A stretch of 64,000 nucleotides of DNA. It comes from Kitasatospora setae KM-6054 (lineage in GTDB: Bacteria; Actinomycetota; Actinomycetes; Streptomycetales; Streptomycetaceae). Numbering within the stretch: position 1 is the first letter of the stretch; every line of letters begins with the position of its first letter. The notes beneath the pieces are model-generated. The model was not told where the DNA came from, did no database searches, and worked only from the letters and a program-made list of their open reading frames with translations. This document shows, in pieces, positions 2,420 to 56,029 of this stretch. The stretch covers positions 4,650,001-4,714,000 of the forward strand of contig NC_016109.1 in assembly GCF_000269985.1 (NCBI RefSeq), in the 5' to 3' direction. The translations under genes were made by a program, and so were the position numbers.

Positions 2420-2810
2420 AACCCGTTGCCGGTCGAAGGGCACCACTTAACCGACCCCAGTCCCGACCACCGCCCCGTCGCCCGAGCCGTCCCCCAGGGG
2501 GAACTCGACGCCCGCGGCATCCCCATCACCTGCACCAGCACTGCTCGGCCACGCAGTTGGAGGTCCAGGCCGATCAACTGCACCTCGGCCAGTTGGCTGG
2601 AGGTCAGCCGTTCGGGCTGCTTCGTGCCGGTCGGGTGCGGACGGCGTTGCCGATGAGTTCCGACACCACCAGCAGCACGGTGTCGATCAGCCCGGAGGGT
2701 GTCTGCCAGCGCTCCAGCACGTCGCGGGTGTGGCGCCTGGCCCAGCTGGCCGCGTTGGGGGTGTCGGCCAGCAGCAGGTGGTCGTGGTGCGTGGTGGGGA
2801 CTTGCGACAT
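2420..2810 (-). pseudogene. Decayed ATP-binding protein (RsbW-like HATPase)
   Basis: The first ~55 residues, from an ATG at 2808-2810, read SWARRHTRDVLERW then DTVLLVVSELIGNAV. This is the N-terminal helix and N-box start of the small Streptomyces anti-sigma-like histidine-kinase-type ATPases. The frame then breaks down (stop at 2604). Sequence further downstream still shows family-like pieces in other frames, such as VLVQVM and GDGSGDG. The usual length is about 140 aa, so this is an inactivated copy. It lies downstream of the methyltransferase gene on the same strand. Confidence 0.65.
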
Positions 2811-2878: not shown

Positions 2879-3619
2879 CTACTTGGTGGCGATGACGTAG
2901 ACGCTGGCCCACTCGCGCTTCGGGTTGGCCAGGGTGGCGTCGAAGGTCCAGGGCTTCACGGTGCTGAAGCCGGCCTCGGTGAACAGCTGGGCGAGCTTCT
3001 CGAAGTCGTAGGCCCACAGGTGCGGGGTGTAGTGCGGGTCGTCGTCCTGGTCGCGGAAGACGTAGTTGACCAGGTCGAGGTAGGTGTTGATGTCGTCGCG
3101 GCAGCTGCGCTTGGAGTACCAGCGCCGGATCGTCTCGTCGGCCTCGGCCGATGCGGCCGGGTAGCGGTTGAGCATGTGTGCGGCGTCCGGCACTCCGGTG
3201 ATGACCTGGCCGCCCGGGGTGAGAACCCGGAAGCTCTCGGCGGCGAAGCCCTTGGCGGAGCGCGGGTAGTCGATGTGCTCCAGGAAGTGCTCGTTGAACA
3301 GCAACTCGACGGTGCCGTCCGGCAGCGGGACGCCCTCGCGCACGTCCCAGAGGAAGTCGGCCGGCGGTACCAGGTCGATGTTGAAGAAGCCGTCCAGCTG
3401 GTGGCTGCCGCCGCCGATCTGGACCTTGGCCGGTCGTTCCTCCGGGCCGTCGGGAAAGGCGCGCCGGGTGGCCCGGTGATAGCGGCTCAGCTCGACTTCC
3501 TTGGACGCGGCACGCAGCGCGCGGGCCAGGCCGTGGCCGGTGGTCGGCTCGGCGAGCACTCGCGCGATCTGCTCTCCGAGCAGGTCGATGGACGGTATGC
3601 CGGGAATGTCCGGTGACAT
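2879..3619 (-). CDS. Class I SAM-dependent methyltransferase
   Basis: A 246-aa cytoplasmic protein, last gene of the minus-strand operon. Residues ~65-90 (VQIGGGSHQLDGFFNIDL) correspond to motif I of Rossmann-fold methyltransferases. LFNEHFLEHIDYP is the typical motif of the methyltransferase-11/predicted SAM methyltransferase group (EHxxEH form). FRVLTPGGQVITGVPD is the post-motif III strand-turn. The start ATG at 3617-3619 has a GAGGAG ribosome site 8-13 nt upstream. The substrate is unknown; the operon context (NDK, CYTH, HD) suggests a nucleotide or phosphorylated small molecule, which is only an inference. Confidence 0.8.
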   Translation of the reverse strand: MSPDIPGIPSIDLLGEQIARVLAEPTTGHGLARALRAASKEVELSRYHRATRRAFPDGPEERPAKVQIGGGSHQLDGFFNIDLVPPADFLWDVREGVPLPDGTVELLFNEHFLEHIDYPRSAKGFAAESFRVLTPGGQVITGVPDAAHMLNRYPAASAEADETIRRWYSKRSCRDDINTYLDLVNYVFRDQDDDPHYTPHLWAYDFEKLAQLFTEAGFSTVKPWTFDATLANPKREWASVYVIATK

Positions 3620-3662
3620 GGCAGACGTCTCCTCGTCAGGGGTGGGGTGGGACCGGGGCAGG

Positions 3663-5066
3663 TCACCCGGTGCGACGGTGGGTTCGGGCGAGCGCGGGCG
3701 ACGCGGCCCACTGGTTGTTGCGCATCAGGGTGGAGCGGAGGTCCACCAGGCGCGGGGTGACCGTCAGGTCGAGCTGCTCGGTCGGGTGGAGGTTGCCGAC
3801 CTCGTCGGCTTCGGCGCGCCAGACGCGGTACCGGAGGTCCGGGTAGGCCGGGTTGATGCCGATCTCGCCCTTGGGGATGGTGCCGTTGAAGGGCGCGGGG
3901 ATGTCGAGGTGGTTCCAGTAGTTCCAGGCTTGGAGGGCCTTGACCTGGTCGAAGTAGAAGTAGAAGTCCGGCGAGCGGCCGAAGGTGCGCAGTTCGCGGT
4001 GGATCAGGTGGCCGAGCAGGGGGCCGAGTTGGGCGGCGAGGCCGTCGAACTCCCACTTGGTGTGGCGCCAGCGGTCCGGGGTCTGCCCGGGGGTGAAGAG
4101 GCGGGCGGCCACCAGGTGGCTGATGCGGTCGGTGAGGTAGGCCGCGGCCGAGGCGGGGTCGAGGGTGCGGTCGACCTTCGCCAGGGTGACGGCCAGGTCG
4201 GGCACGTGGAACTTGGCGAGGTCGAACCGGCCGATCATGCCGGGGACGGCGAACAGCAGTTCCTTGTAGAGCCAGTTGTTGAACTCGCCCAGTTCGGCCA
4301 GCCGCCGCGTGCGCGGGCTGGTCGAGTGCAGCATCACGTACTCGGACAGGGCCTCGAAGAACAGGTAGCCGAGGATCGGCAGGCGGGGGATCGTCGCGTC
4401 GAGCTGCCGCAGGAAGTCCGCGGGTTCGACGACCGCGCCCCGGTAGGCGACGGCGGCGGCCAGCGCCAGGAAGGCGGTGGAGTTCTTCACCCGGCTCACC
4501 ACCGTCTCGCGCAGCTGGTGCCGCTCGCTCTTGGACAGCAGGTATTCGAGGTGGGTGTAGATGGCCAGGTGGATCGAGCCGAGCCGCAGGTAGTCCACCC
4601 CGGCGAGCCCTTGGTACGCCTGCGGCGGCAGGTCCAACTCGAAGACCAGCGGGGTGGGTCGGTGGTCCGCCCGCCCGATCTTCGCGAGGAAGGCCGGCGC
4701 TTCGCGGGTGAGCACGTAGGAGCCGAGGTTGTGCGGACGGAAGCCGCTGCCCGTCGCGGTGAGCGGCGCGCAGTAGATGCTGCCGACCAGGCAGCCCCCT
4801 GACGGGTAGAGCACGCCGTCCCGGCTGATCTTCTCCAGGGCGTGGGTGACGTGCAGCAGGTGGAGCTTGCCGCCCGCGGCGAGGGAGTCGAAGAGGGCGT
4901 TGTGGCGCAGCAAGTGGCCGTTGGGGGTGCCGAGGGCGAGCCGGTCGGTCCAGGCGGCCTTCTGGGCGCCGAGCGGGTCGTCCGGGTCGGGCAGCGCCGG
5001 GACGAGGCTGGTACCGAAGAACGTGTGCGCGTCCGCCCAGCTCTCGTACGAGTCCGTGAAGTCCAC
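3663..5066 (-). CDS. Unknown 467-aa protein of the NDK/CYTH/HD operon
   Basis: I do not recognise the family. The GTG at 5064-5066 is chosen as the start because it follows the stop codon of the HD gene by only 4 nt, indicating translational coupling, and gives an N terminus VDFTDSYESWADAHTFFG. Notable stretches are LLHVTHALEKISRDGVLYPSGG with GSIYCAPLTATG (Cys and Gly rich, possibly a catalytic loop), a helical middle with FFEALSEYVMLHS, and HTKWEFDGLAAQLGPLLGHLIHREL near residue 350. Aromatic residues are abundant (FYFYFDQVKALQAWNYWNHLD). There is no signal peptide or membrane segment. Sandwiched between an HD protein and a methyltransferase, it is a candidate for the central enzyme of this pathway. 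Confidence 0.8.
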   Translation of the reverse strand: MDFTDSYESWADAHTFFGTSLVPALPDPDDPLGAQKAAWTDRLALGTPNGHLLRHNALFDSLAAGGKLHLLHVTHALEKISRDGVLYPSGGCLVGSIYCAPLTATGSGFRPHNLGSYVLTREAPAFLAKIGRADHRPTPLVFELDLPPQAYQGLAGVDYLRLGSIHLAIYTHLEYLLSKSERHQLRETVVSRVKNSTAFLALAAAVAYRGAVVEPADFLRQLDATIPRLPILGYLFFEALSEYVMLHSTSPRTRRLAELGEFNNWLYKELLFAVPGMIGRFDLAKFHVPDLAVTLAKVDRTLDPASAAAYLTDRISHLVAARLFTPGQTPDRWRHTKWEFDGLAAQLGPLLGHLIHRELRTFGRSPDFYFYFDQVKALQAWNYWNHLDIPAPFNGTIPKGEIGINPAYPDLRYRVWRAEADEVGNLHPTEQLDLTVTPRLVDLRSTLMRNNQWAASPALARTHRRTG

Positions 5067-5070
5067 GGCC

Positions 5071-5832
5071 CTACACCAGCCCCTTCTCGGCCACCGCGAA
5101 CCGGACCGCCTCGATGCTGGACGCACCGGCCAGGAAAGCGGCCTCCGAGGTGACGACGAGGTCGAAGGCCAGCGGCTTCAACTGCTCGAAGGCCGGTTCG
5201 CGGACGCGGCGGGCGTCCGGCCACCAGGAGAGCTTCGGCAGCCGGTAGCGGTCGAGGGCGTCCGCGGCCTTCACCAGGTCGCAGACGCGGGCGAACCGGG
5301 CGTGGTCGGCGCGGTCGTCGGCGCTGAACGCCTCGTACGGCACCTCGTGCAGCCGGGTTGCGGTGGCGGCCTTGACGACCTCGCCGGGGTTGGGCGTCCG
5401 GCCGAAGTGCGTCCAGACCAGGTCGGCGTTGGCGGCCAGCCAGATCGCGGCCCGGCCACCGTGCCCCGGGTCGTCCTTGTCGTGGTGGCGCTGGCAGTCG
5501 TGCACGGCTGCCGCGATGACCGCGGCGGCGGTGTCGGACTCGTCCAGGTCGTGCCGGTCGGCCAGCAGCGCGGCGAGTACCGCCGTCCGCAGGCCGTGCC
5601 GGTGCCCGTGGAGCGAGTCGGCGAGCCGGGGTTCGGCCAGCCACTGGACGGGGACGGCGGCCGACTCGACCAGGGTCTTGGTGCCGGTGCGCAGCGGCGG
5701 CGGCCAGGCCGACGGGAAGTCCGGCCGGTTGGCCTTGATCCACTCGACGGTGGCGGTGTCGGTGAACTGGTGGAGCGGCAGTTCCTTGCGGGCAGCCAGG
5801 GCGACCAGGCTGCCTGTGCGGGTCGTGCTCAT
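5071..5832 (-). CDS. HD-domain phosphohydrolase-like protein
   Basis: A 253-aa protein with the metal-binding pattern of the HD superfamily: GHRHGLRTAVLAALLADRH gives the first His, VIAAAVHDCQRHHDKDD gives the His-Asp doublet, and VCDLVKAADALDRYRL gives the distal Asp. HD enzymes hydrolyse phosphate mono- or diesters, often nucleotides. The start ATG at 5830-5832 lies 41 nt after the CYTH gene, and the 3' end is 4 nt from the next gene's start. The neighbouring NDK and CYTH proteins support a triphosphate- or nucleotide-linked substrate, but this is inference. Confidence 0.78.
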   Translation of the reverse strand: MSTTRTGSLVALAARKELPLHQFTDTATVEWIKANRPDFPSAWPPPLRTGTKTLVESAAVPVQWLAEPRLADSLHGHRHGLRTAVLAALLADRHDLDESDTAAAVIAAAVHDCQRHHDKDDPGHGGRAAIWLAANADLVWTHFGRTPNPGEVVKAATATRLHEVPYEAFSADDRADHARFARVCDLVKAADALDRYRLPKLSWWPDARRVREPAFEQLKPLAFDLVVTSEAAFLAGASSIEAVRFAVAEKGLV

Positions 5833-5873
5833 GGTGCGGCCCACCCCCTCGGTGGTCGGGACGGCTGGGAGCG

Positions 5874-6452
5874 CTACCTGATCTCGGCGGACCGCGCGGC
5901 CTTGCGGGCGGCTTCCGCGGCCTCGAAGGCGGCGGTGAAGGCGGCCAGCTCCTCCTCGCTCATCAGGGCGACGCCCAGCTCGGCGGCCGTGTCGATGATT
6001 CGGGCGGCGGCCTCGTCCTTGGCGGCGTCGGAGGCGCCGTCGGGCAGCAGCACCTCGAACTCGGCGTGGTGGCCCCACGCCTCGCTCCACTTGACCGCGA
6101 TCTCGACGCCGCCGAAGCGGAAGTTGCGGCGGAAGTTGAACGCCTCGTGCCGGGTGTCCTCGAAGCCCAGGGCCGCGAAGAGCTGAACGGCCTTGGCCAC
6201 GTCCGCCCGCGCGATCGGGAACTCGGTCTCGCCGAACGCCGTGCCCCGGCCGATCCTGCCGTCCTTGAGCGTGATCTTGGCGGTGTCGGCGGACTGGTTG
6301 TCGGTGACCTTCAGCAGCTGGTCCGGCAGCACGAAGAAGTGGATGCTCTTGTTGTCCTCGCCCAAGTCCTCACCGTCGCGGAGCAGCCGCTCCACCAGCG
6401 ACTCGTGGGTGTCCTTGTCGAACCGGGCGCGCATCTCGATCTCGACGGCCAT
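5874..6452 (-). CDS. CYTH-domain protein (triphosphate tunnel family)
   Basis: A 192-aa protein that opens with VEIEMRARFD, the ExExK/R-type strand of the CYTH (class IV adenylyl cyclase / thiamine triphosphatase) superfamily. It continues with alternating charged strands typical of the tunnel fold: LLKVTDNQSADTAKITLK, ETEFPIARADVAKAVQLF, RRNFRFGGVEIAVKWSE, AEFEVLLP. The middle also fits the class IV cyclase order. The C-terminal ~45 residues are an Ala/Glu-rich helix. The ATG at 6450-6452 has a GGGAGGAC ribosome site. It may hydrolyse a triphosphate or cyclise ATP; which of these cannot be decided by eye. Confidence 0.72.
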   Translation of the reverse strand: MAVEIEMRARFDKDTHESLVERLLRDGEDLGEDNKSIHFFVLPDQLLKVTDNQSADTAKITLKDGRIGRGTAFGETEFPIARADVAKAVQLFAALGFEDTRHEAFNFRRNFRFGGVEIAVKWSEAWGHHAEFEVLLPDGASDAAKDEAAARIIDTAAELGVALMSEEELAAFTAAFEAAEAARKAARSAEIR

Positions 6453-6603
6453 CGCGGTCGTCCTCCCTGTTTCGGGCATGGCTGATGGGGCCGAGCCGGC
6501 ATCAGGTACCCCCTGGCCGACCCGGATGGGCACGTGTTCAGTTGGTCGCCGGTGGTGCGGCCGGTCACTGCTCTCCCGGCCGCACCACCGGCCGTCCGCT
6601 ACG

Positions 6604-6903
6604 TCAGGCCAGCTCGCCGAACCGCTCGCGGACCACGCCCGGGTGCAGGTAGTTCGGCAGCGGCACGCCACCGACGGCGGTGCGCCGGGTCGCCACCTGC
6701 TCCTCGGTGTCGGACGGGAAGCCGTCCAGCAGCTGGAGGCACTGCTTGACCCACTCCCGCGAGGTGTCCCACTCGCCGGCGTCGCGCAGCCGCAGCGCCA
6801 GGGCGTACGCCGTCTCGGCCGCGGCCCAGCGGTCGGTCGCCAGCTCCTGCTGGAAGGCGGCCTCCAGCTCGGCCGGGGAGGCCAGGCGGATCGTGCTCGT
6901 CAT
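6604..6903 (-). CDS. Small 99-aa hypothetical protein
   Basis: A 99-aa soluble protein between the NDK and CYTH genes in the same operon. The first ~70 residues look like paired helices reminiscent of tetratricopeptide packing (ETAYALALRLRDAGEWDTSREW, LLDGFP). The C-terminal part is PLPNYLHPGVVRERFGELA. A GAGAGGG ribosome site precedes the ATG. I do not recognise it. The conserved-looking Trp and Pro positions and the operon setting suggest a specific accessory subunit. Confidence 0.7.
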   Translation of the reverse strand: MTSTIRLASPAELEAAFQQELATDRWAAAETAYALALRLRDAGEWDTSREWVKQCLQLLDGFPSDTEEQVATRRTAVGGVPLPNYLHPGVVRERFGELA

Positions 6904-6985
6904 CGTTGCCCTCTCGTCGTGCCAGTCGTTCCGTGGTGGTGAACTTGGCCGGCGTCCTCGGAGTGACGCCCGGACGGCCTTCGGG

Positions 6986-7495
6986 TCAGTAGATGTACGA
7001 CTCGGCCAGCGTCTTGTAGTCGAACAGCTCGTCCTTGGCGAACCACAGCTCGACTTCCTGCGCGGCTTCCTCGCGGTTGCCGGAGGCGTGGATCAGGTTG
7101 GCGACCGCCTTGCCGACGGTCACGCTGGCGCCCCGGCTCATGTGGGAGAAGTCGCCGCGGATGGTGCCGGCCGGAGCCTGGTCCGGGTAGGTGCTGCCCA
7201 CGATCTTGCGGACCGTTGCGATCGCGTCATAGCCCTCCAGCACCAAGGCGATGACCGGGCCCTGCTGCATGAAGGTGGCGGTCAGGTTGTAGACCTCGGA
7301 ACCGAGGCGCTCCTCCAGGTCCGCGTAGTGCCTGCGGGTGAACTCGGCGTCCATCCACTTCATCTTCGTGCCGACGATCTTGAGTGCGGCGTCCTCGAAC
7401 CGCTGCAGAACCCGGCCGGACAGACCACGGGCCACCGCGTCGGGCTTGAGAAGCACGAGCGTGCGCTCGACCTGCCCCTGGGTCTCCTCGGTCAT
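6986..7495 (-). CDS. ndk: Nucleoside diphosphate kinase
   Basis: A 169-aa enzyme that transfers phosphate between NTPs and NDPs. The N terminus RTLVLLKPDAVARGLSGRVL is the canonical NDK start. The active-site histidine is His136 in VANLIHASGN. GTIRGDF at ~110-116 is the conserved loop. An insert of about 13 residues (SHMSRGASVTVGK) between that loop and the catalytic His makes it longer than the ~137-aa housekeeping enzyme typical of actinomycetes. I therefore infer a specialised second copy. It is the first gene of the minus-strand operon and has an AAGGGGAAAGGG ribosome region. Confidence 0.92.
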   Translation of the reverse strand: MTEETQGQVERTLVLLKPDAVARGLSGRVLQRFEDAALKIVGTKMKWMDAEFTRRHYADLEERLGSEVYNLTATFMQQGPVIALVLEGYDAIATVRKIVGSTYPDQAPAGTIRGDFSHMSRGASVTVGKAVANLIHASGNREEAAQEVELWFAKDELFDYKTLAESYIY

Positions 7496-7899
7496 TTGTT
7501 CCCTTTCCCCTTGCCAGAGTGGTGATTTGACGATGTGTCGGATGTATCTGGCACTGAGGTTACCCGCGCCGGTGAAGCGGTTTTCGATTAGTCGGGTCGG
7601 CCCGCCGAGAGGTCGGACAGCCTGTCCTTCCGATCGCTCGATGCGGTGATCGGCCCTGGCCTAGAATCAGTCAGTACCGAACCCGCAACTGTCTGTGCAG
7701 AAGCGGGTCTTGGTCGCGAACCCCAGTCTGAAGCTGCCGCCGGCCCGGAGCCATGCCGTCGCAGTGCGGCCGCAGTGCATCCGCGGTGCAGCAGCCGAGC
7801 AGACCAGCCGCACCACGACCAGCGCGACCGAAGCACTCCGCCGCGCCCGAAGCGAAGACGCGAGGTGCGGCCAGGTATCGCTTTCCGGGAGGGCAGCAG
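7496..7899. promoter_or_regulatory. Divergent promoter region between ndk and NUDIX genes
   Basis: A 404-bp non-coding stretch separates the divergent ndk operon and the HTH-NUDIX gene, so both promoters should lie here. A TAGAAT hexamer at 7662-7667 is a plausible -10 box for the plus-strand gene, which would give a leader of over 200 nt. No convincing -35 box or named riboswitch was recognised. The region is richer in A/T than the flanking genes only around 7525-7600. Confidence 0.4.
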
Positions 7900-8547
7900 A
7901 TGGACGTCGTCGTGAGCTGGACGGGCAAGTCCGCCTGTCAGCTCCAGGAGGCACTGCGCGATACCAACGAAGCGTTCGCCGCCCGGCTGGGCATCGGACT
8001 GCGAACGGTGGCCAGCTGGCACAAGAGCCCCGAGCTGGTTCCGCGCACCGAGATGCACCAGTTACTCGACCAGGCACTGGAGACCGCTCCGCCCACCGCG
8101 CAGAAGCGATTCGCGCTCCTGATCGCGGAGCCCGGCGCCCAGGCCGCCCAGTCCTTGCGAGTTGCTGTTGCGGTGGTGGTCCGCGGCGCCGAGGTGCTGC
8201 TCGTCTGCCGCCATGACGACGAATCCGCCGGCATCCGCTGGCAGTTCCCGGCGGGCGTCATCAAGCCGGGCAGGAGTCCGGCGTCGACGGCCGTCCGCGA
8301 GACGCTGGCCGAGACGGGTGTCCACTGCCTGGTGGGTGAGGACCTCGGCGGGCGGCTTCACCCCGCCACCGGGGTGTGGTGCCAGTACTTCCTCGCCGAG
8401 TACCTGGCGGGCGTCGCCCAGAACCAGGACACGGCCGAGAACGCCGACGTGATGTGGGTTCCGCGAAACACGGTGACCCGCTTCATCCCCACCGATACGA
8501 TCTTCCAGCCCATCCTGGCCGCCTTGGAGGAGCCGCAGCATGACTGA
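7900..8547 (+). CDS. HTH-like N-terminal domain fused to NUDIX domain
   Basis: A 215-aa protein. Residues ~8-60 (SACQLQEALRDTNEAFAARL, then GIGLRTVASWHKSPE) look like a helix-turn-helix of the XRE type. Residues ~85-205 form a NUDIX hydrolase domain. The NUDIX box reads G-VIKPG-R-SPASTAV-RETLAETGV: the RExxxExG core is kept, but the first Glu is Arg and one Glu of the EE pair is Ala, so catalysis may be altered. The ATG at 7900 has a GGGAGG site upstream and is preferred over the in-frame 7753 start. The stop overlaps the next gene by 8 bp. A ligand-sensing regulator is a reasonable alternative to an enzyme. Confidence 0.75.
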   Translation: MDVVVSWTGKSACQLQEALRDTNEAFAARLGIGLRTVASWHKSPELVPRTEMHQLLDQALETAPPTAQKRFALLIAEPGAQAAQSLRVAVAVVVRGAEVLLVCRHDDESAGIRWQFPAGVIKPGRSPASTAVRETLAETGVHCLVGEDLGGRLHPATGVWCQYFLAEYLAGVAQNQDTAENADVMWVPRNTVTRFIPTDTIFQPILAALEEPQHD

Positions 8548-8956
8548 GCAGACCGACAAGCCGGGCATCGCCGCCGCCATCATCGTGCAGGACGGCCGCG
8601 TCCTGATGGTCCAGCGCCGGGTGAAGGAGGGCGAGCTGTCGTGGCAGTTCCCGGCCGGTGAGGTCGAGGCCGGCGAAACGCCGGAGGCGGCGGCCGTCCG
8701 TGAGACCGCAGAAGAAGTCGGCCTGACCGTGAAGGCCACCCGGCTGCTCGGCGAGCGCGTGCACCCGAAGACCGGGCGGCAGATGTCGTACACCGCCTGC
8801 GAGGTGGTGAGCGGAACCGCCACTGTGGTCGACACCGAGGAGCTGGCCGAGCTGGCATGGATTATTTACGACCAGATCGTCGATTTTGTGCCGTACGGCC
8901 TGTTCGGGCCGGTGCAGGCATACCTCGACGCCGAGATGCAGTCAGCATCCTTTTGA
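8540..8956 (+). CDS. NUDIX hydrolase
   Basis: A 138-aa single-domain NUDIX enzyme with a perfect box, G-EVEAG-E-TPEAAAV-RETAEEVGL. It would cleave a nucleoside diphosphate linked to another moiety. Its start overlaps the end of the HTH-NUDIX gene by 8 bp, so the two are co-translated. The sequence aligns by eye with the second half of its neighbour (QDGRVLMVQRR, WQFPAGEVEAGE). The pair may therefore derive from a duplication in which the upstream copy gained an HTH domain and lost catalytic residues. The exact substrate is unknown. Confidence 0.85.
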   Translation: MTEQTDKPGIAAAIIVQDGRVLMVQRRVKEGELSWQFPAGEVEAGETPEAAAVRETAEEVGLTVKATRLLGERVHPKTGRQMSYTACEVVSGTATVVDTEELAELAWIIYDQIVDFVPYGLFGPVQAYLDAEMQSASF

Positions 8957-17362: not shown

Positions 17363-17689
17363 ATGGCCAAGACCAGGATCAGCATCAGTCTCGACAGCGA
17401 TCACGCCGAGCGCATTCGGGAGCATGCCGAGCGCGCGGGTCTGGATGTTTCGGCTTATCTCGTCAACGCCGCTACCCGGCAGATGGCCGAGGCGGAAGCC
17501 GCTGAGGCGCAGTTCGCGCGGATCGACGCGGTGATCGCCGCGGCGGAGGCGGAGGCCGCCGAACTGCCTCCGCTGCCTGATGTCGCCGATGAGGACCTGA
17601 CGGAGGATGAGCGCCGGGAGGTCGCGGAGGCCATGGAGCTCATCTATGGTGCGGACGCTCCTGCGGCCCGGCCGGGCAACGCCGCGTGA
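17363..17689 (+). CDS. Ribbon-helix-helix antitoxin
   Basis: A 108-aa protein with an N-terminal RHH DNA-binding domain (KTRISISLDSDHAERIREHA, GLDVSAYLVNAA) and an acidic Ala/Glu-rich tail (EDLTEDERREVAEAME) that would wrap the toxin. The 3' end overlaps the toxin start by 4 bp (GTGA), the standard toxin-antitoxin layout. Tandem CGTAATA sites upstream suggest autorepression. Confidence 0.82.
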   Translation: MAKTRISISLDSDHAERIREHAERAGLDVSAYLVNAATRQMAEAEAAEAQFARIDAVIAAAEAEAAELPPLPDVADEDLTEDERREVAEAMELIYGADAPAARPGNAA

Positions 17690-18171
17690 CCACGCGGGTG
17701 CCGGTCTACGACACCGGCATGCTGATCGCGCTCGCCGACCGAAAGCCCAAGGCTGTACGGCTGCACGCCGGCCTCAAGGACACACCGCATCGCGCGGTCG
17801 TGCTCGGCCCGGTGCTGGCCCAGGTGTGGCGACCCAGTCCCGCCACTGTGCACGCCATGGCCGCGGTCCTCAAGGACTGCACGGTGCCCCAGGCGCGCAG
17901 CTCGGCCCTGGCGATGCGCCCCACTACTGCCGGCCAGACGGTATGCATCATGTGTGCGACCGGGCCGGATCTGGCGGAGTGGCAGCGCATCGGTAGCGCG
18001 CTCGCCGTGGCCGAGTTGCCTCCGAAGAAGCGCCCGGACGCCGTGGATGCCTTGGTCGCGCTGACTGCGGCCCGACACGGCAGCGCCGTTGTTTTCACCA
18101 GTGACCCGGATGACCTCACGGCTTACCTGAAGGCGTTGGACGCCCAGGACGTCCATGTGGTCCAGATCTGA
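17686..18171 (+). CDS. PIN-domain-like toxin
   Basis: A 161-aa protein starting at a GTG that overlaps the antitoxin stop. VPVYDTGMLIALADR supplies the first conserved Asp of PIN RNases. RPDAVDALVALTAARHG and VVFTSDPDDLTAYL supply the distal acidic cluster. VLGPVLAQVW fits the second helix, where the usual Glu may be replaced by Gln. It would cleave RNA when free of its antitoxin. The pair is VapBC-like, though more divergent than typical VapC. Confidence 0.78.
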   Translation: MTTRVPVYDTGMLIALADRKPKAVRLHAGLKDTPHRAVVLGPVLAQVWRPSPATVHAMAAVLKDCTVPQARSSALAMRPTTAGQTVCIMCATGPDLAEWQRIGSALAVAELPPKKRPDAVDALVALTAARHGSAVVFTSDPDDLTAYLKALDAQDVHVVQI

Positions 18172-37975: not shown

Positions 37976-38923
37976 ATGTTCGCATTCATCGCGCCGGGGC
38001 AGGGGTCCCAGACCCCGGGCCTGCTGGCCGCCTGGCTGCGCGACCCGGCCACCGCCGAGCGGGTGCAGGCCTGGTCCGAGGCCGCCGACACCGACCTGGT
38101 CCACCTCGGCACCAGGGCCCCGGCCGCCGAGATCGCCCGCACCGAGCACACCCAGCCGCTGCTGGTGGCCGCCGGACTGCTCGCCCACCACGCCCTGCAG
38201 GACGCCGTCCCGGCCGGCGGCGCGGTCGTCGCCGGCCACTCGGTCGGCGAGCTGACCGCCGCCGCGTACGCCGGGGTGCTGAGCCCCGCCGACGCCGTCC
38301 GCCTCGCCGCCGTCCGCGGCCGGGCGATGGCGGTGGCCTGCACCGAGGCGCCCACCTCGATGGCCGCCGTGGTCGGCGGCGAGAAGAGTGAAGTCCTGGA
38401 CCGAATAGGCGAGTTGGGGCTCTTCCCGGCGACCTTCAACGGCCCCGGCCAGATCGTCGCGGCCGGCCTGGCCGACGCCCTCGACCAGCTCGCGGCCGCC
38501 CCGCCGGCCGGCGCCACCGTCAAGCGGCTCGCCGTCGCCGGCGCCTTCCACACCCCGTACATGGAGTCGGCCCGGCAGACCTTCGAGGAGGCCGCCGCCC
38601 TGGTGCCGTTCGCCGCGCCGGAGCTGCCGCTGCTCTCCAACGCCGACGGCGCGTCCGTCACCGACCCGGCGGAGATCCGCCGGCGGCTGGTCGGGCAGCT
38701 GGTCGGGCCGGTCCGCTGGGACCACTGCCTGACCCAACTCGCCTCGCTGGCACCGGAGCTGACCGTCTCGCTGCCGCCCGCCAAGACCCTCGCGGGCATC
38801 CTCAAGCGCCAGCACCCCGAGCTGGACGTGCTGTCCGTCACCACCGCCCGGGACGTCGCCCGGGTCCGGGAGCGGCTGGCCGCCCCCGCCGGCCGAGGAG
38901 CGTCCGTCCATGCCGGTGTCTGA
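37976..38923 (+). CDS. Acyl-carrier-protein malonyltransferase-like acyltransferase
   Basis: A 315-aa FabD-type protein. The N terminus FAFIAPGQGSQTPGLL and the nucleophile GHSVGELTAAAYAGVL are canonical. VRGRAMAVAC supplies the carboxylate-binding Arg. GAFHTPYMESA supplies the catalytic His and the FH pair found in malonyl-specific enzymes. It would load malonyl units onto the cluster ACP (47114). An AAAGGGGG site precedes the ATG. The 3' end overlaps the adenylation gene by 14 bp. Confidence 0.9.
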   Translation: MFAFIAPGQGSQTPGLLAAWLRDPATAERVQAWSEAADTDLVHLGTRAPAAEIARTEHTQPLLVAAGLLAHHALQDAVPAGGAVVAGHSVGELTAAAYAGVLSPADAVRLAAVRGRAMAVACTEAPTSMAAVVGGEKSEVLDRIGELGLFPATFNGPGQIVAAGLADALDQLAAAPPAGATVKRLAVAGAFHTPYMESARQTFEEAAALVPFAAPELPLLSNADGASVTDPAEIRRRLVGQLVGPVRWDHCLTQLASLAPELTVSLPPAKTLAGILKRQHPELDVLSVTTARDVARVRERLAAPAGRGASVHAGV

Positions 38924-40430
38924 CCTGCTGGAGTACCCGCGCGCCGAGCGGGCCGCCCACACCGCCCTGATCGACGCCCAAGGAGCCCTGACCTACCGCC
39001 AGTTGGGCACCGCCGTGGACCGCGCCGTCGGCTGGCTGCGCGGCCAGGGCATCGCCCCCGGCGACCGGGTGGTGTACGCCGGCGGCAACGACCGGGCCTT
39101 CCTCGCCCTGTTCTGGGCCACCCTGCGGGCCGGCGCCGTCTTCGTCCCGGTCCACCCCGAGCTGACCGACCACCAGATCGACCACATCGTCGCCGACAGC
39201 GGCGCCGCGCTCGCCGTCTGCCGCCCGTCGGCCGGCCGCCGGGCCGCCCGCAGCACGGACGTCGAGCGGGCCTGGGAGCAGGTCCTCGCCAGTGCCGAGG
39301 ACCCGTACCGGGCCGAGGCCGACGAGGACGCGGTGGCGATGCTGATCTACACCTCCGGCACCACCGGCCGCCCCAAGGGCGTGGTCTGCCCGCACCGGCA
39401 GATGCTCGCCGCCGTCGACGCGGTGCACGCCTGCCTCGGCTACCGGGCCGACGACGTGGTGCTGTGCCGGCTGCCGCTCTCCTTCGACTACGGCCTCTAC
39501 CAGGCCCTGATGACCGCGCTGGTCGGCGGCACCCTGGTGCTGGCCCGGCGCAGCGACGACATGGGACTGCTGAAGCTGGTCGAGCGGACCGGCGTCACCG
39601 TCGTCCCGCTGGTGCCCTCGCTGGCGCAGATCCTCACCCTGCTGCAGGGCAAGGCGCACCGGCCGACGAAGGTCCGGCTGTTCACCAACACCGGCGCCCG
39701 CCCCGGCCGGGCCGTCACCGCCGAGCTGCTGGAGCTGTTCCCCGGCTCCGAGTTCGCCTCGATGTACGGCATGACCGAGTGCAAGCGGATCTCCATCCTC
39801 GACCCCGCCGAGTACGCGGCCCACCCCGACTCGGTCGGCCCGCCGATCCCCGGCGACCGGATCCGGATCCTGGCCCCCGACGGCACCGAGCTCGGCCCCC
39901 GGCTCACCGGCGAGATCGCCGTCCGCGGCGCCACCGTGATGGCCGGCTACTGGAACGTCCCGATGGCCGAGCAGAACCGGTTCGTCCCGCACCCCGACGG
40001 CGGCCTGGAACTGCGCACCGGCGACAACGGCTGGCTGGACGAGGAGGGCCGGCTCCACTTCGTCGGCCGCGACGACGACGTGGTCAAGCGCCGCGGCGTC
40101 CGGATCGCCCTCACCGAGGTCGAGGACGCCGCCGAGCGGATCCCCGGCGTCAGCGCCGCCGTCGCGCTCCGCCCCGAACCCGAGGGCGCCCCGCTGCTGC
40201 TGGCCGTGCACGGCAGCGTCCCGGCCGACCGGGTGCGCGCCCTGCTGGCCGCCGAACTCGACCACAGCCGGATGCCCGACCGGGTCGTCCCGATCGCCGC
40301 CGTGCCGCTCACCGCCAACGGCAAGCCCGACCGCGCCGCCGCCCGCCGCCTGGTCGAGGCCGCCGAAGCCGCCGAGGCCCCCGAAACCGCCACCACCCCG
40401 AGGAGCAGCCATGAACCAGTCGCAGTTTGA
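38910..40430 (+). CDS. Adenylate-forming enzyme (AMP-dependent ligase)
   Basis: A 506-aa ANL-superfamily enzyme. Core motifs are AMLIYTSGTTGRPKGVVCPH (A3), SMYGMTECKRISIL (A5), LELRTGDNGWLDEEG (A7), GRDDDVVKRRGVRI (A8) and LTANGKPDRAA (A10 Lys). It would activate an acid or amino acid and load the 80-aa carrier protein whose gene overlaps its 3' end. The pocket DYGLYQA at the A4 position, without the usual amino-acid-binding Asp being obvious, makes a carboxylic acid substrate at least as likely as an amino acid. Confidence 0.88.
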   Translation: MPVSDLLEYPRAERAAHTALIDAQGALTYRQLGTAVDRAVGWLRGQGIAPGDRVVYAGGNDRAFLALFWATLRAGAVFVPVHPELTDHQIDHIVADSGAALAVCRPSAGRRAARSTDVERAWEQVLASAEDPYRAEADEDAVAMLIYTSGTTGRPKGVVCPHRQMLAAVDAVHACLGYRADDVVLCRLPLSFDYGLYQALMTALVGGTLVLARRSDDMGLLKLVERTGVTVVPLVPSLAQILTLLQGKAHRPTKVRLFTNTGARPGRAVTAELLELFPGSEFASMYGMTECKRISILDPAEYAAHPDSVGPPIPGDRIRILAPDGTELGPRLTGEIAVRGATVMAGYWNVPMAEQNRFVPHPDGGLELRTGDNGWLDEEGRLHFVGRDDDVVKRRGVRIALTEVEDAAERIPGVSAAVALRPEPEGAPLLLAVHGSVPADRVRALLAAELDHSRMPDRVVPIAAVPLTANGKPDRAAARRLVEAAEAAEAPETATTPRSSHEPVAV

Positions 40431-40653
40431 CCAGCTCGTCGAGCGGACCTGCTCCGTGCGGGTCACCGACTCCGAGACCCCGCTGGTGGACCTGGGCGTC
40501 GACTCCCTGCACACCATCGCCCTGCTGATGGCGATCGAGGAGGAGTTCGGCTTCGAGGTCGACCCCGACGCCCTCGCCGACCCGGCGCTCGCCTCCCCGG
40601 CCGGCCTGCTGCGCTACGTGCGCGCCAGCACCGCCGCCCCGGCCGGGATCTGA
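40411..40653 (+). CDS. Stand-alone carrier protein (PCP/ACP)
   Basis: An 80-aa phosphopantetheine carrier with the attachment Ser in LVDLGVDSLHTIALLMAIEE. It lies between the adenylating enzyme (20-bp overlap) and the aminotransferase, so it probably carries the adenylated starter or amino acid. It is distinct from the second carrier at 47114, which belongs with the PKS enzymes. Confidence 0.9.
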   Translation: MNQSQFDQLVERTCSVRVTDSETPLVDLGVDSLHTIALLMAIEEEFGFEVDPDALADPALASPAGLLRYVRASTAAPAGI

Positions 40654-40666
40654 GGAGCCGGCAGCC

Positions 40667-41872
40667 ATGTGGACCGACACCAGACCCCCGGCCGAGATGC
40701 CGAAGCTGTTCGAACGCGGCGCGGACGTGATCTCGCTGGCCGGCGGCCTGCCCGACCTGGACGTCCTCCCGCTGGACGAGATATCCGCCCAGCTCGGCCG
40801 GCTCGTGCGGCTCGGCGGCAGGCTCGCCCTGCAGTACACCACCCCGCACGTCGCCAAGGCCCTCGTCCCCGCCGTCGCCGACCTGATGGCCCGCGAGGGC
40901 GGCCTGGCCGACGCCGACAACCTGATCCCGACCAGCGGCTCGCAGATGGGCCTGACCGCCGTCGCCCTCGCCCTCGGCAGCCCCGGCGACACCATCCTCA
41001 CCCAGACCCCCGCCTACCCCGGCGCCACCGCCGCCTTCCGCACCGCCGGCCTGCTGCCGTACGCCGCCGCGGAGGACGCCGAGGGCCTCGACCCGGTCGA
41101 ACTCAGAAGAACCGTCCAGGAGTTGCGCTCCGCCGGGCACACCGTCCGGCTGCTCTACACCAACCCGACCTTCCAGAACCCGACCGGCGCCACCCTCGCC
41201 GTCCCGCGCCGCGCCGCGATCCTCGCCGCCTGCCGCGAGCTCGACCTGCTGCTGGTCGAGGACAACCCGTACGGCCTGCTCGGCTTCGACGGCACCACCA
41301 CCACGCTGTTCCAGGCCCTCGACCCGGAGCGGGTGGTCTACCTCGGGACGTTCTCCAAGATCTTCGCGCCCGGCCTGCGCTCCGGCTGGATCGCCGCCCC
41401 CGCCCACCTGCGGCACGACCTGGCCCGGGTCGCCGAGATCATCTCGCTGTCGCCCTCCGCGCTCGCCCAGGGCGCGCTGGCCGCCTACCACTCCCGCTCC
41501 GGCTGGGACACCCTGATCGACCGCTACCGGGACAGCTACCGCGAGCGCTGCGCCCTGATGGCCGACGCGCTGGACGCCGAACTCGGCACCGGCACCCCCT
41601 GGCACTGGCAGCGCCCCGGCGGCGGCTTCTACCTCTGGCTGCGCCACCGCGACCGGGCCGACGCCGGACCGTACGCGCGGGCCGCCGCCGACCGCGGCGT
41701 CTCGGTCGTCCCCGGCGGGCACTTCTCGATCGACGGCGAGCACGCCGACGGCCTGCGGCTGTGCTTCAGCAACGTGCCCCGCAGGAAGATCGCCGAGGCG
41801 GTCGGCCGGCTCTCCGCCGCGCTCACCGAAACCCCTTCCGAGCAGCGCGAGTTCGCGGAGGTGGCGGGATGA
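40667..41872 (+). CDS. PLP-dependent aminotransferase (fold type I)
   Basis: A 401-aa class I/II aminotransferase of the MocR/2-aminoadipate-like group. It has VISLAGGLPDLDVLP at the N terminus, TSGSQMGLTAVALAL at the cofactor phosphate site, YTNPTFQNPTGATL, the Asp in LLLVEDNPYGLL, and the Schiff-base Lys in YLGTFSKIFAPGLRSGW. It may aminate the carrier-bound or free acyl product, or make the amino acid substrate. The ATGA overlap with the LanB-like gene couples the two. Confidence 0.9.
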   Translation: MWTDTRPPAEMPKLFERGADVISLAGGLPDLDVLPLDEISAQLGRLVRLGGRLALQYTTPHVAKALVPAVADLMAREGGLADADNLIPTSGSQMGLTAVALALGSPGDTILTQTPAYPGATAAFRTAGLLPYAAAEDAEGLDPVELRRTVQELRSAGHTVRLLYTNPTFQNPTGATLAVPRRAAILAACRELDLLLVEDNPYGLLGFDGTTTTLFQALDPERVVYLGTFSKIFAPGLRSGWIAAPAHLRHDLARVAEIISLSPSALAQGALAAYHSRSGWDTLIDRYRDSYRERCALMADALDAELGTGTPWHWQRPGGGFYLWLRHRDRADAGPYARAAADRGVSVVPGGHFSIDGEHADGLRLCFSNVPRRKIAEAVGRLSAALTETPSEQREFAEVAG

Positions 41873-44232
41873 CCGCGCCCGCCGTCGAGACCCTCGCGGA
41901 AGACACCGGGCCCGCCGCCGTCGACTGGGCCGACCTCGGCCCGCGCCACCGGCTGGCCGGCACCGACTGGCGGGTCTGGGGCGTCGGACTGCTCCGCAAC
42001 GCCGGGTTCCCGGTCTCCGGCCTCGACCTGGTCGGCGGCACCCGCGCCCCGGCCGCCGCCGCCGCGCTCACCGCCGGCCACGGCACCGCCGACGCGTTCC
42101 ACGCCGCCTACGCCGCCGACGCCGACGCCGAGGGCACCGCCCTCGCCCGCCTCGCCACCGACCCCAGGCTCCGCCTCGCCATCGCCTGGCAGAACCGCAC
42201 CGTCTACCGGATCCTCGACTCGCTGGCCGCCCCCGGCGGCAAGGAGACCAAGCGCCGCCAGCGCGAACGCACCCTCGCCATGTACTGGCTGCGCTACTGC
42301 GCCAAGGCCGACACCATCGGCTTCTTCGGCCCCGCCGCCTGGATCGGCGTCGGCCGCACCGACCGCGCCGTCGACGTCGAGCCAGGCCCCGGCCTGGTCG
42401 CCGCCACCCACACCGCCCTGGAGCGCTGGACGGTCGCCGCCGTCGCCGACTGGATGGCCGAACAGCCCGGCGCCCGCTGGTGGTTCCCGCCGGTGCTGCG
42501 CCCCGACGTCCAGCTGGACGGCGACCGGCTGGTGCTGCCCACCCGCAAGGTGCTCCGGCTGCGCCCCGAGGAGGCCCAGCTGCTGCGGCTCGCCGACGGC
42601 GACCGCCACGCCGAGCGGATCACCGACCTGCTGATCGCCGAGCACGGCTGGGACGCCGCCACCGCCCGCGACAGGGTGGAGAAGGCCCTCGGCCGGCTGC
42701 TGCGCCAGCGCGTCCTCGGCTGGGACGCCAACATCCCGGTCGACGTCCGCGCCGAGCGGGTGCTGCGCCGCCGGGTCGACGCCATCGGCGACCCCGCGCT
42801 GTTCGTCCGCTACGACGCGGTGCTGACCGAACTCGCCCGCCACAAGCGGGAGATCGAGCGGGCCGGGACCGCCGAGCAGCTGGTCGAGGCACTGGACGCG
42901 CTGGACGCGTACTTCGTCGAGACCACCGGCGAGGCCGCCTCCCGCGAGGAGGGCAAGGCGTACGCCGGGCGCACCCTGAGCTACCAGGACGCGCTGCGGG
43001 ACTGCCGGATGGAGCTCGGCCGGGACTTCCTGGACGCGCTGGCCCGCCCGCTCGCCCTGGTCGCCGACGCCGCCGACTGGTTCGGCAACCGGCTGGCCGA
43101 ACTCGTCGAGGCCGAGGTCGCCGGATTCGTCCGGGCCGCCGCCGCCAAGCTGCCGGCCGGCACGCCCGTCACCCTCGCCGACGTCTGGCCGCAGACCCTG
43201 GCGCTGTTCTGGGGCGAGCACGACCACCCGGTGCGGCGCGCGGTCGGCGAACTCGCCCTGAAGTGGCGCGAGGTGATCGGCGAGCTGCCCGACGGCGCCA
43301 CCCGGGTCGAGCTGCCCGCCGACCGGATCGCCGCCCGGGTCCGGGAGGTCTTCGCCACCGGCGAGGTGCGCTCCCCGCACCTCGCCGTGCACAGCCCCGA
43401 CCTCCAGGTGGTGGCCCGCTCCGCGGCGGCGGTCAACGCGGGCGACTACACGGTGGTGCTCGGCGAGATGCACGCCTGCCTGGCCACCCTCGACCTGCCG
43501 TTCCTGGACTGGACGGCCGGCCCCGGCGGCACCGTCCGCGACCGGGTCAACCGGGTGATCGGCGCCGAACGCCTGGTGCCGCTGCTCCCGGTCGGCTGGA
43601 AGCGCAACAGCGGCCGGATGGTGCCCGCCCCGATCGGCGCCGGCGACCGGCTGATCGGCTTCACCCGCGCCCCGTTCGACCAGCGCGACCGGATCGAGCC
43701 CGCCGTCTCCATCACGCTCGCCGAACAGGACGGGCGGGTCACCGCGACCACCGCCGACGGCCGTGCCCGCTCGCTCTCCGAACTGCTCGCGGTGCTGATC
43801 TCGATCATCGCCTGCGACGCCTTCAAGATCGGCCTGGACCGGCCGCACGCCCCCCGGGTCACCCTGGACGGCCTGGTGCTGTTCCGGGAGACCTGGCGGC
43901 TGCCGCCGACCGGCGTCGAGCTCCCCGCCAAGGCCGACCGGCACCGCGACTACCTGGCGGTGCGCCGCTGGGTGGACGCCAACGGCCTGCCGGACCGGGC
44001 GTTCGTCAAGTTCCCCGAGGAGACCAAACCCTCCCTGGTCGACTTCACCAGCCCGGTGCTGGTGCTGTCCTTCGCCAACCTCGTCCGCCGCGCGGTGCAG
44101 TCCGACCCGGACGCCGTGGTGACCGTCAGCGAACCGCTGCCGGCCCCCGAGGAGTCCTGGCTGCCCGACGCCGACGGCGAGCGCTACGTCAGCGAGCTTC
44201 GGCTCCAGATCAGCCGAGAGGTGCCGCAATGA
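41869..44232 (+). CDS. Stand-alone LanB-like lantibiotic dehydratase-family protein
   Basis: A 787-aa protein that resembles the N-terminal (glutamylation) domain of LanB dehydratases. It has LAMYWLRYCAKADTIGFFGP, IAWQNRTVYRILDSL, AELVEAEVAGFVR and late VSITLAEQDGRV, VTLDGLVLFRETWR and PDRAFVKFPEETKP segments. Full LanB enzymes are ~1000 aa and act with LanC on a precursor peptide; neither partner is present. Known short relatives use aminoacyl-tRNA to form amide bonds (PEARL-type enzymes) or to activate hydroxyls. Here it lies between an aminotransferase and diaminopropionate genes (4-bp overlaps on both sides), suggesting aminoacyl transfer in small-molecule assembly. Function is inferred. 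Confidence 0.78.
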   Translation: MTAPAVETLAEDTGPAAVDWADLGPRHRLAGTDWRVWGVGLLRNAGFPVSGLDLVGGTRAPAAAAALTAGHGTADAFHAAYAADADAEGTALARLATDPRLRLAIAWQNRTVYRILDSLAAPGGKETKRRQRERTLAMYWLRYCAKADTIGFFGPAAWIGVGRTDRAVDVEPGPGLVAATHTALERWTVAAVADWMAEQPGARWWFPPVLRPDVQLDGDRLVLPTRKVLRLRPEEAQLLRLADGDRHAERITDLLIAEHGWDAATARDRVEKALGRLLRQRVLGWDANIPVDVRAERVLRRRVDAIGDPALFVRYDAVLTELARHKREIERAGTAEQLVEALDALDAYFVETTGEAASREEGKAYAGRTLSYQDALRDCRMELGRDFLDALARPLALVADAADWFGNRLAELVEAEVAGFVRAAAAKLPAGTPVTLADVWPQTLALFWGEHDHPVRRAVGELALKWREVIGELPDGATRVELPADRIAARVREVFATGEVRSPHLAVHSPDLQVVARSAAAVNAGDYTVVLGEMHACLATLDLPFLDWTAGPGGTVRDRVNRVIGAERLVPLLPVGWKRNSGRMVPAPIGAGDRLIGFTRAPFDQRDRIEPAVSITLAEQDGRVTATTADGRARSLSELLAVLISIIACDAFKIGLDRPHAPRVTLDGLVLFRETWRLPPTGVELPAKADRHRDYLAVRRWVDANGLPDRAFVKFPEETKPSLVDFTSPVLVLSFANLVRRAVQSDPDAVVTVSEPLPAPEESWLPDADGERYVSELRLQISREVPQ

Positions 44233-45284
44233 CCGTGCTCGTCCCCGACGGCGCCGCGGTACGGGTACGCCCGCACCGGCCGTCGGACCCCGACATCGTC
44301 GCCACGATCGGCGGAACCCCGCTGGTCGCGCTCGACCGCCTGTTCCCGCCCGCCCGCTTCCAGGTGTACGCCAAGTGCGAGCGGTTCAACCCCGGCGGCT
44401 CCATCAAGGACCGGGCCGCCAAGTCGATGGTCGAGCAGGCCATCGCCAGCGGCCGGATCGTCCCCGGCGTCTCCACCGTGGTGGAGTCCTCCTCCGGGAA
44501 CCTGGGCATCGCGCTCGCCCAGCTGTGCAACTTCCACCGGCTCGGCCTGGTCATCGTGGTCGACCCGCGCACCACCCCGCAGAACCTCGCCATCATGCGG
44601 GCCTACGGCGCCAGGGTGGAGGTGGTCGAGCACCGCGACCCGGCCACCGGCGAGTACCTGCCGGCCCGGATCGCCCGGGTCCGGCACCTGCTGGAGACCG
44701 TCCCCGACGCCTGGTGGCCCAACCAGTACGCCAACGAGGACAACGCCCGCGCCCACCACGGCACCATGCGGGAGATCGTCGAGGCGCTGCCCGCCGCCCC
44801 CGACTACCTGTTCCTGGCGGCCGGCACCACCGGCACCCTGCGCGGCTGCGCCGAGTACGTCCAGGCCCAGGGGCTGTCCACCCGGGTGGTCGCGGTGGAC
44901 GCCGTCGGCAGCGTGATCTTCGGCCCGCCGGAGCCCTGGGAGGCCGCCCACAAGCGCACCATCCCCGGCCACGGCGCCGCCGTCGTCCCCGCGCTGCTGC
45001 GGCCCGGACTGGCCGACCGGGTGGTCAAGGTGACCGACTCCGAGTGCATCCGGGGCTGCCGCAGCCTGCTGGCCGAGGAGTCGATCCTGGCCGGCGGCTC
45101 CTCCGGCGCGGTGATCGCCGCGCTCCGGCAGTCCGCCGACTGGATCGAGCCCGGCGCCGTCTGCGTCGCGGTGCTCCCGGACGGCGGCGACCGCTACCTC
45201 GACACCATCTACGACGACCAGTGGGTCGAGTCCTACCTCCGGCAGTACCTGCCGCCCACCGAGCAAGAGAGAGACACGCCATGA
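44229..45284 (+). CDS. sbnA: 2,3-Diaminopropionate biosynthesis protein SbnA-like
   Basis: A 351-aa fold type II PLP enzyme of the cysteine synthase family. The cofactor Lys is in NPGGSIKDRAAKSM, the substrate loop is VESSSGNLGIALAQ, the phosphate loop is AAGTTGTLRG, and GGSSGAV lies near the C terminus. SbnA condenses O-phosphoserine with glutamate to give N-(1-amino-1-carboxyethyl)-glutamate. The immediate partner gene is SbnB-like (4-bp overlap), which makes this assignment much more likely than cysteine synthesis. Confidence 0.9.
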   Translation: MTVLVPDGAAVRVRPHRPSDPDIVATIGGTPLVALDRLFPPARFQVYAKCERFNPGGSIKDRAAKSMVEQAIASGRIVPGVSTVVESSSGNLGIALAQLCNFHRLGLVIVVDPRTTPQNLAIMRAYGARVEVVEHRDPATGEYLPARIARVRHLLETVPDAWWPNQYANEDNARAHHGTMREIVEALPAAPDYLFLAAGTTGTLRGCAEYVQAQGLSTRVVAVDAVGSVIFGPPEPWEAAHKRTIPGHGAAVVPALLRPGLADRVVKVTDSECIRGCRSLLAEESILAGGSSGAVIAALRQSADWIEPGAVCVAVLPDGGDRYLDTIYDDQWVESYLRQYLPPTEQERDTP

Positions 45285-46312: not shown

Positions 46313-47061
46313 CCGGACTGTTCCAGGAGGGCACCCGGGCCGTCGTCACCGGCGCCTCGCGCGGCATCGGCGCCGCGATCGCCCTCCAGCTCGCCGAGCA
46401 CGGCTGCGACGTCGCGCTCAACTACCGTTCCAGCGCCGGGAAGGCCGAGCAGCTGGCGGAGAAGATCGAGGGCCTGGGCCGGCGCGCCCTGCTGGTGAAG
46501 GCCGACGTCTCGGACGAGGCGCAGGTCACCGCGATGTACAAGGAGATCCGCACCGCCTGGGGCGGGGTCGACGTCGCGGTCCTCAACTCGGGGATCACCG
46601 CCGACGGGCACTTCGCGGCGATGAGCGCCGCCAAGTGGCAGGAGGTGATCTCCACCAACCTGACCGGCGCGTTCCTGACGGCCCGCGAGGCGACCAAGCA
46701 GATGTACGCCTCCGGCGGCTCGATCGTCTTCATCGCCTCCACCTCCGGGATCGCCGGCCGGGTCGGCCAGGCCAACTACGCCGCCTCCAAGGGCGGGGTG
46801 ATCGCGATGGCCAAGACCCTCGCCTACGAGGGCGCGCCGAAGGGCATCCGGGTCAACGTGGTCGCGCCCGGCTTCATCGACACCGACATGGTGAAGAAGG
46901 TGCCGCGCGCCCAGCTCAAGGAGGCCGCGGCGGCGATCCCGCTGGGCCGGATGGGCACCCCGGAGGAGGTCGCCCAGGCGGCGGTCTTCCTGGCCAGCCC
47001 GGCGGCCTCGTACATCACCGCCAAGGTGCTCACCGTCGACGGCGGAATGCTCTACAGCTGA
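46309..47061 (+). CDS. 3-Oxoacyl-ACP reductase (FabG-like ketoreductase)
   Basis: A 250-aa SDR. It has the cofactor motif VVTGASRGIGAAIA, Asn in VAVLNSG, the catalytic Ser-Tyr-Lys in FIASTSGIAGRV and NYAASKGGV, and the C-terminal APGFIDTDMV and VDGGMLYS of FabG. It would reduce the beta-keto group after each chain extension by the KS-CLF. The adjacent ACP and dehydratase complete a reducing type II PKS set. Confidence 0.93.
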   Translation: MTGLFQEGTRAVVTGASRGIGAAIALQLAEHGCDVALNYRSSAGKAEQLAEKIEGLGRRALLVKADVSDEAQVTAMYKEIRTAWGGVDVAVLNSGITADGHFAAMSAAKWQEVISTNLTGAFLTAREATKQMYASGGSIVFIASTSGIAGRVGQANYAASKGGVIAMAKTLAYEGAPKGIRVNVVAPGFIDTDMVKKVPRAQLKEAAAAIPLGRMGTPEEVAQAAVFLASPAASYITAKVLTVDGGMLYS

Positions 47062-47113
47062 CCCCCGTCACCGAACTGACGCTCCATCACATCACCGACG
47101 AGAGGAAACCGCC

Positions 47114-47404: not shown

Positions 47405-47406
47405 CC

Positions 47407-47946: not shown

Positions 47947-47998
47947 CCCCGCCCCGCTCCCCGCAGGCCCCGCCCCAGCACAGACAAGGAGGTGTGCC

Positions 47999-50017: not shown

Positions 50018-50053
50018 CCCCGCGCCACTCCTCGAAAGGACACCGAGACCACC

Positions 50054-55977: not shown

Positions 55978-56029
55978 CCCCGGCCCGGGCCCCCAACCTC
56001 CTCTCCCCGCTGATGAAGGACCCGCGAAG

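Follow-up and report, generated by a model that had tools for sequence, protein, structure and literature searches.

What does the group of genes at positions 2879-8956 of the analyzed stretch of Kitasatospora setae KM-6054 DNA do, and is it a unit at all? This stretch, called the window below, has 64,000 nucleotides (nt) and covers 4.65-4.71 Mb of the 8.78 Mb chromosome (NC_016109.1). An earlier note, made from the letters of the sequence, had named here an NDK, a CYTH protein, an HD phosphohydrolase, a methyltransferase, a protein of 467 amino acids (aa), and two NUDIX proteins, and had called the set an undescribed nucleotide-handling cassette. All of the named genes were found where the note had placed them (2879-7495 on the minus strand, the NUDIX pair extending to 8956). 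Read from 7495 to 2879, the order is NDK, a 99-aa protein (p99), CYTH, HD, the 467-aa protein (U467), and the methyltransferase (MT), with gaps of 43, 4, 41, 151, and 82 nt in coordinate order from MT to NDK. A divergent plus-strand pair, NUD1 and NUD2, begins opposite NDK; the two genes overlap by 8 nt.

Conservation and spread of the cassette

The cassette is real, conserved, and undescribed: six to eight adjacent genes stay together in many soil actinomycetes, and a reduced version occurs in very small bacteria and archaea. A peptide-pattern search of 84,980 species, with one genome per species, yielded 51 loci of U467, the closest named ones in Streptomycetaceae. Among actinobacteria, 51 of the analyzed loci combine U467 with CYTH, and in all 51 the recovered cassette genes are co-directional; these loci include the window itself (L001) and at least three duplicates (L056-L058, from the contigs of L034, L015, and L017). 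The full order NDK-p99-CYTH-HD-U467-MT is kept in 36 loci; three start with MT (Allorhizocola, Catellatospora, and Longispora), one with a contig edge nearby has no NDK, and 11 short loci, for which only 1.5-kb flanks were covered, read CYTH-HD-U467-MT. Cassette counts come from tblastn; gene calls in the high-GC loci were made by a home-made caller, which may miss or mis-start genes.

Among 199 related genomes, U467 was found in 33, CYTH in 11, and p99 in 10. The CYTH genomes are exactly the 11 in which the best U467 has at least 65% identity, and all 10 p99 genomes are among them (Fisher p against this type of U467, kinship being ignored, 2.7e-18 for CYTH and 5.2e-16 for p99). HD was found in 32 genomes, 31 of them also with U467, and in all 31 the coordinates place the two genes no more than about 110 bp apart. 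Three genomes depart from this pattern: G005 has a short HD fragment and no U467, G046 has a U467 fragment, and G087 is the third. Across 38 loci, U467 and the other five proteins have correlated pairwise distances (0.93-0.97), as joint inheritance would predict, with a contribution from shared species history. Given the co-directional order in all 51 loci and the co-occurrence across genomes, the cassette is not a product of chance, and an origin as chance neighbors was rejected. The genes thus co-occur, and the 467-aa protein matches no known family (see below), so the earlier description stands. No published account of the cassette was found in the open-licence PMC literature, and its composition and core family are, provisionally, new to the libraries and literature searched.

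The spread is wide but patchy. In the broader Actinomycetota, U467 was found in 1 of 396 genomes, that of the window itself. The 84,980-species search also gave five loci in bacteria of the Candidate Phyla Radiation (CPR) and DPANN archaea (L044, the closely similar L045, L047, L048, and L049), and a sixth (L156) came from a further CPR genome in a survey of the phylum of L047, where U467 is present in 2 of 379 genomes. U467 of these loci shows 39-45% identity. CYTH, HD, U467, and MT are all found in L044, L045, L048, L049, and L156, CYTH of the latter at just 28% identity. L047 has no MT; a thymidylate-synthase-like gene directly follows U467, accompanied by a second CYTH, a P-loop kinase and, farther away, two NUDIX-like open reading frames (ORFs). 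L156 adjoins ORFs that read by eye as a recombinase and a DNA methylase.

A leader motif, GGTAAYCTC, is shared by 35 of 40 regions upstream of NDK, at 66-70 nt from the start of that gene, compared with 66 occurrences in 20,000 random 150-bp segments of the same loci. It is missing from L043, L046, and three loci in which MT precedes NDK. The NDK leader in the window holds GGTAACCTC. The motif is a candidate promoter or operator; since nine of the loci that have it showed no NUD1, it is not necessarily the operator of NUD1.

Core and accessory proteins

Scans of ten window proteins against Pfam, NCBIfam, and PADLOC gave no match of note for U467, as the earlier note had supposed, nor a meaningful one for HD. 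H72, T74, Y98, and E401 are invariant in 38 aligned U467 sequences; in a second alignment (A3, n = 36) the same holds for H, Y, and E, and almost for T. Members of the ADP-ribosyltransferase (ART) superfamily have invariant H-Y-E-type catalytic residues, and the U467 segment LLHVTHALEKISRDGVLYP looks, by eye, like the CHFT segment of DarT and the YHGT segment of KptA. Membership of U467 in the DarT (PF14487), RES (PF08808), or KptA (PF01885) families was rejected, none of the 38 sequences matching these models. Profile comparison with DarT and KptA gave its top-scoring segments at the H-x-T motif (16.9 and 16.1, same-half decoys 9.4-14.9), in a test without power, as even established ART families fail to detect one another (13.6-17.9).

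Structure prediction, to which the earlier note had pointed, produced confident AlphaFold models of two U467 branches (pLDDT 86.5 and 92.1) but no significant relative: Foldseek gave nothing with E < 0.3 for either model, and nothing significant in PDB and BFVD. Comparison by sequence with solved structures gave nothing convincing (best E 0.074). With VIA-align, where matches with Z < 5 may reflect common arrangements, model 1 had as its top match MbcT, an ART-fold toxin (Z 4.9, root-mean-square deviation 5.4, 143 aligned), a score that can be incidental; MbcT is absent from the match list of model 2, while a chain of the cyanophage A4 pre-ejectosome occurs in both lists (Z 4.4 and 4.3). Relative to DarT and RES toxins, U467 carries a large helical insertion. 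The two models and the invariant H-x-T, Tyr, and Glu weakly suggest an ART-like fold, a call that we consider evenly balanced.

U467 was not found in GenBank phage records. Two IMG/VR loci (L095 and L096) hold complete cassettes beside tape-measure-like and other ORFs common to L007 and L012, and could be prophage or phage-tail-like loci. In L105-L107, DarT-like genes adjoin ADP-ribosylglycohydrolase-like ORFs and a helicase-like gene, a three-gene arrangement that is repeated (by eye).

The earlier note had also held that all recognizable members act on nucleotides. This overstates the case for p99, whose sequence bears no sign of nucleotide chemistry in Pfam (TPR_10, E 0.023), and for MT, also without such a sign, and NUD1 may be a regulator. 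NUD1 may serve as a sensor-regulator because its NUDIX box is degenerate in the alignment, that of NUD2 being canonical. The CYTH motif reads ExExR in the alignment, not the ExExK of the CYTH superfamily; the second CYTH of L047 passes the Pfam cut-off (34.9 bits), unlike that of the window. HD has no Pfam match and keeps its metal-ligand pattern (Table 1). MT is retained as far as CPR and DPANN at 43-48% identity. Another NDK, 43% identical to that of the cassette, is encoded elsewhere in the same genome; the cassette NDK is therefore an extra copy.

The accessory genes of the loci vary yet, to judge from their sequences, remain nucleotide-centered (predicted kinases, thymidylate-synthase-like, dCMP-deaminase-like, NUDIX, and Ham1 proteins). 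An NMP-type P-loop kinase directly follows U467 in L037 and L041, with a near-identical gene in L039, and L041 has in addition a Ham1-type pyrophosphatase. A second methyltransferase stands between U467 and MT in L002 and L021, a dCMP-deaminase-like gene between CYTH and HD in L049, and a plasmid copy is accompanied by dTMP kinase and NUDIX genes. A HATPase_c_2 gene occurs 3' of MT in 20 of the 51 loci, in some of them partial, and is broken in the window. Directly upstream of NDK, L021, L022, and L024 have an extra CYTH-like ORF (188 aa, no Pfam match, by eye), preceded by a HAD-like gene in L021 and L022.

Candidate functions

The roles considered in the earlier note, namely a modified nucleotide signal, phage defense, or a nucleoside-type metabolite, are all still candidates. 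Direct observations are the genes present, their order and co-occurrence, a distribution that is broad yet patchy, and the invariant residues. Because triphosphate-building kinases, one-carbon transferases, and pyrophosphatases for odd triphosphates are the needs of a non-canonical nucleotide pathway, we infer such a pathway, with each of its chemical steps and its purpose. Our best explanation, to which we would give slightly less than an even chance, is that the cassette encodes a mobile pathway making and policing a non-canonical nucleotide, perhaps in genetic conflict. U467, like an enzyme of the ART fold, would target a nucleotide or NAD+ at a glycosidic or ribosyl position, and MT, or the thymidylate-synthase-like substitute, would add a one-carbon group. 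HD and CYTH would strip phosphate or (tri)phosphate, the NMP-type kinase and NDK would recharge the product to the triphosphate, and the NUDIX or Ham1 pyrophosphatases would exclude the odd nucleotide from cellular DNA and RNA. NUD1, as an HTH-NUDIX protein, may sense the product and regulate the operon. The purpose would be conflict, the product perhaps being an anti-phage or antimetabolite nucleotide.

Several points weigh against this pathway. Of the 40 long actinobacterial loci, 11 yielded no NUD1, although a few of these 11 are truncated at contig ends, and the stretches of L048, L049, and L156 showed no NUDIX gene. Enzyme activity is not on record for any cassette member, and the pathway leaves the role of p99 unexplained. 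A flank scan of 90 of 156 eligible ORFs (no more than the four closest at each locus, with further selection by hand; no control set) gave scattered single matches to defense genes. Finally, U467 has other genomic contexts. It occurs with an HTH-TPR regulator, an NAD-epimerase, an antiparallel GT2, HD and sometimes a DegT aminotransferase; with TauD, GT2, a UDP-sugar dehydrogenase, and GT4 on plasmids and virus-classed contigs; and as the last gene of a pPIWI-RE operon in L040, its start overlapping the PIWI stop. The gene clusters of L040 are also found in L035, L038, and L052, and the arrangement of L093 is similar. None of these sugar and pPIWI-RE contexts needs a nucleotide pathway; they weaken an exclusive link between U467 and nucleotides. 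They are also the best hint of a conflict role. A broader proposal seems to us unlikely as a whole: that an undescribed module common to actinomycetes, CPR, and DPANN makes a new non-canonical nucleotide, that U467 represents a new ART-fold family serving this synthesis, that the module supplies its own kinases and house-cleaning pyrophosphatases, and that U467 has also been recruited into pPIWI-RE and sugar-nucleotide clusters as a general conflict or signaling catalyst.

We rank the modified-nucleotide pathway first, an NAD-dependent effector second, and a metabolite pathway third. As an effector, possible though somewhat unlikely, U467 would be an ADP-ribosyltransferase or NAD+-consuming protein resembling DarT or RES, and HD, NUDIX, and the other proteins would undo or limit its product. 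The conserved H-x-T, Tyr, and Glu, the MbcT match of model 1, the location of the best DarT and KptA profile segments on the H-x-T motif, and the position of U467 at the end of pPIWI-RE operons agree with such a role, as does a virus-encoded KptA-NUDIX fusion reported in PMC9503650. However, MbcT is missing for model 2, Foldseek gave nothing with E < 0.3, the profile scores barely exceed decoys in a test that ART-ART controls fail too, and NDK, the kinases, and MT would be superfluous.

A pathway to a nucleoside or nucleotide-sugar natural product, which we consider unlikely, would account for the U467 clusters with NAD-epimerase, DegT aminotransferase, glycosyltransferases, UDP-sugar dehydrogenase, and TauD, and the MT and thymidylate-synthase-like genes would suit base modification. 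On the other hand, no recurrent transporter or tailoring set was seen among the 90 flanking ORFs scanned, and the system is present in minimal CPR and DPANN genomes, in which antibiotic clusters are unusual. RNA-end processing, with CYTH as an RNA triphosphatase, HD as a cyclic phosphodiesterase, a KptA-like U467, MT modifying the ends, and NUDIX removing caps, is highly improbable: RNA-end enzymes exist within the CYTH and NUDIX families, and the U467 motif resembles KptA (profile segments, by eye), but neither an RNA ligase nor a polynucleotide kinase was noticed, the nucleotide kinases, deaminase, Ham1, and thymidylate-synthase-like genes do not fit, and KptA is already present in 50 of 61 related genomes.

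Genomic setting and related systems

Table 1. Positions of the cassette genes and adjoining elements in the window
Feature	Coordinates	Strand	Evidence
HATPase_c_2 gene remnant (anti-sigma-like), stop-interrupted	2604..2810	-	Pfam E 2.8e-4
MT, class I S-adenosylmethionine-dependent methyltransferase-like, 246 aa	2879..3619	-	Pfam Methyltransf_11 23.2 bits (cut-off 21.2)
U467, core protein, 467 aa, no named family	3663..5066	-	Alignments, two structure models
HD-type metal phosphohydrolase, 253 aa	5071..5832	-	H...HD...H...D in 17 aligned homologues
CYTH (triphosphate-tunnel) protein, 192 aa, ExExR	5874..6452	-	Pfam CYTH E 3.6e-4, 20.8 bits, below cut-off 23.2
p99, small (99 aa), at most TPR-like	6604..6903	-	TPR_10 E 0.023, sole match
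NDK, long form, 169 aa	6986..7495	-	Pfam NDK 3.9e-39; catalytic His retained (NLIHAS)
Leader element GGTAAYCTC, candidate promoter/operator	7556..7564	-	66-70 nt 5' of NDK start, recurrent in homologous loci
NUD1, HTH-like N-terminus and NUDIX domain, degenerate box	~7900..8547 (start possibly 7753)	+	Pfam NUDIX 3.5e-17; alignment
NUD2, NUDIX hydrolase, canonical box	8540..8956	+	Pfam NUDIX 1.6e-23; alignment

The location on a mobile island, proposed in the earlier note and checked here in part, agrees with a tRNA-Lys gene at 1832-1905, with several transposase-like ORFs between 10600 and 16000 (by eye, starting at about 10.7 kb), and with the patchy distribution of the cassette. GC content is 0.62-0.68 between 8 and 16 kb vs. 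about 0.75 over most of the window. Adjoining ORFs of 108 and 161 aa at 17363-18171 look toxin-antitoxin-like. A long co-directional run at 38910-57739, with carrier-protein, ketosynthase-like, dehydratase-like, and aminotransferase-like ORFs, is probably a biosynthetic gene cluster, and a SARP-like regulator lies in its neighborhood at 58934-60784 (all by eye).

Centered on an enzyme family that has no name, this gene system of both bacteria and archaea would join the nucleotide-based systems of prokaryotes. It offers a concrete target: one family in several contexts, four invariant residues for mutation, and a candidate regulatory element. Assignment to a filed anti-phage system was rejected, the PADLOC-DB 2023 matches being limited to the two NUDIX proteins (PDC-S07). 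Ter-linked operons, for which a nucleoside-like product and a stress or conflict setting have been proposed, differ in gene set, and no Ter family match was found among the ten window proteins scanned. The cassette resembles the DarT-DarG and RES (MbcT) systems in its mobile, patchy spread and in having a hydrolase next to U467, whose H-x-T, Tyr, and Glu residues make it a candidate for an ART-like protein; it differs in that U467 has the helical insertion and no Pfam DarT or RES match, that an HD protein stands in place of a macrodomain, and that six to eight nucleotide-type genes are involved. The pPIWI-RE system (Ppr), whose operons are completed by one U467 branch (L040 was scanned, the four others are alike), was described in 2013 as a three-gene operon, in a paper of which the part available to us does not mention U467 (PMC3702460). 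PIWI, REase, and DinG genes are present at L040, in contrast to the ten window proteins scanned, which include none. Prokaryotic viperins (pVip) are associated with a kinase, and the cassette, although without a radical-SAM protein by Pfam, would work alike if its product were an antiviral modified nucleotide, making it a parallel to viperin that employs a different chemistry.

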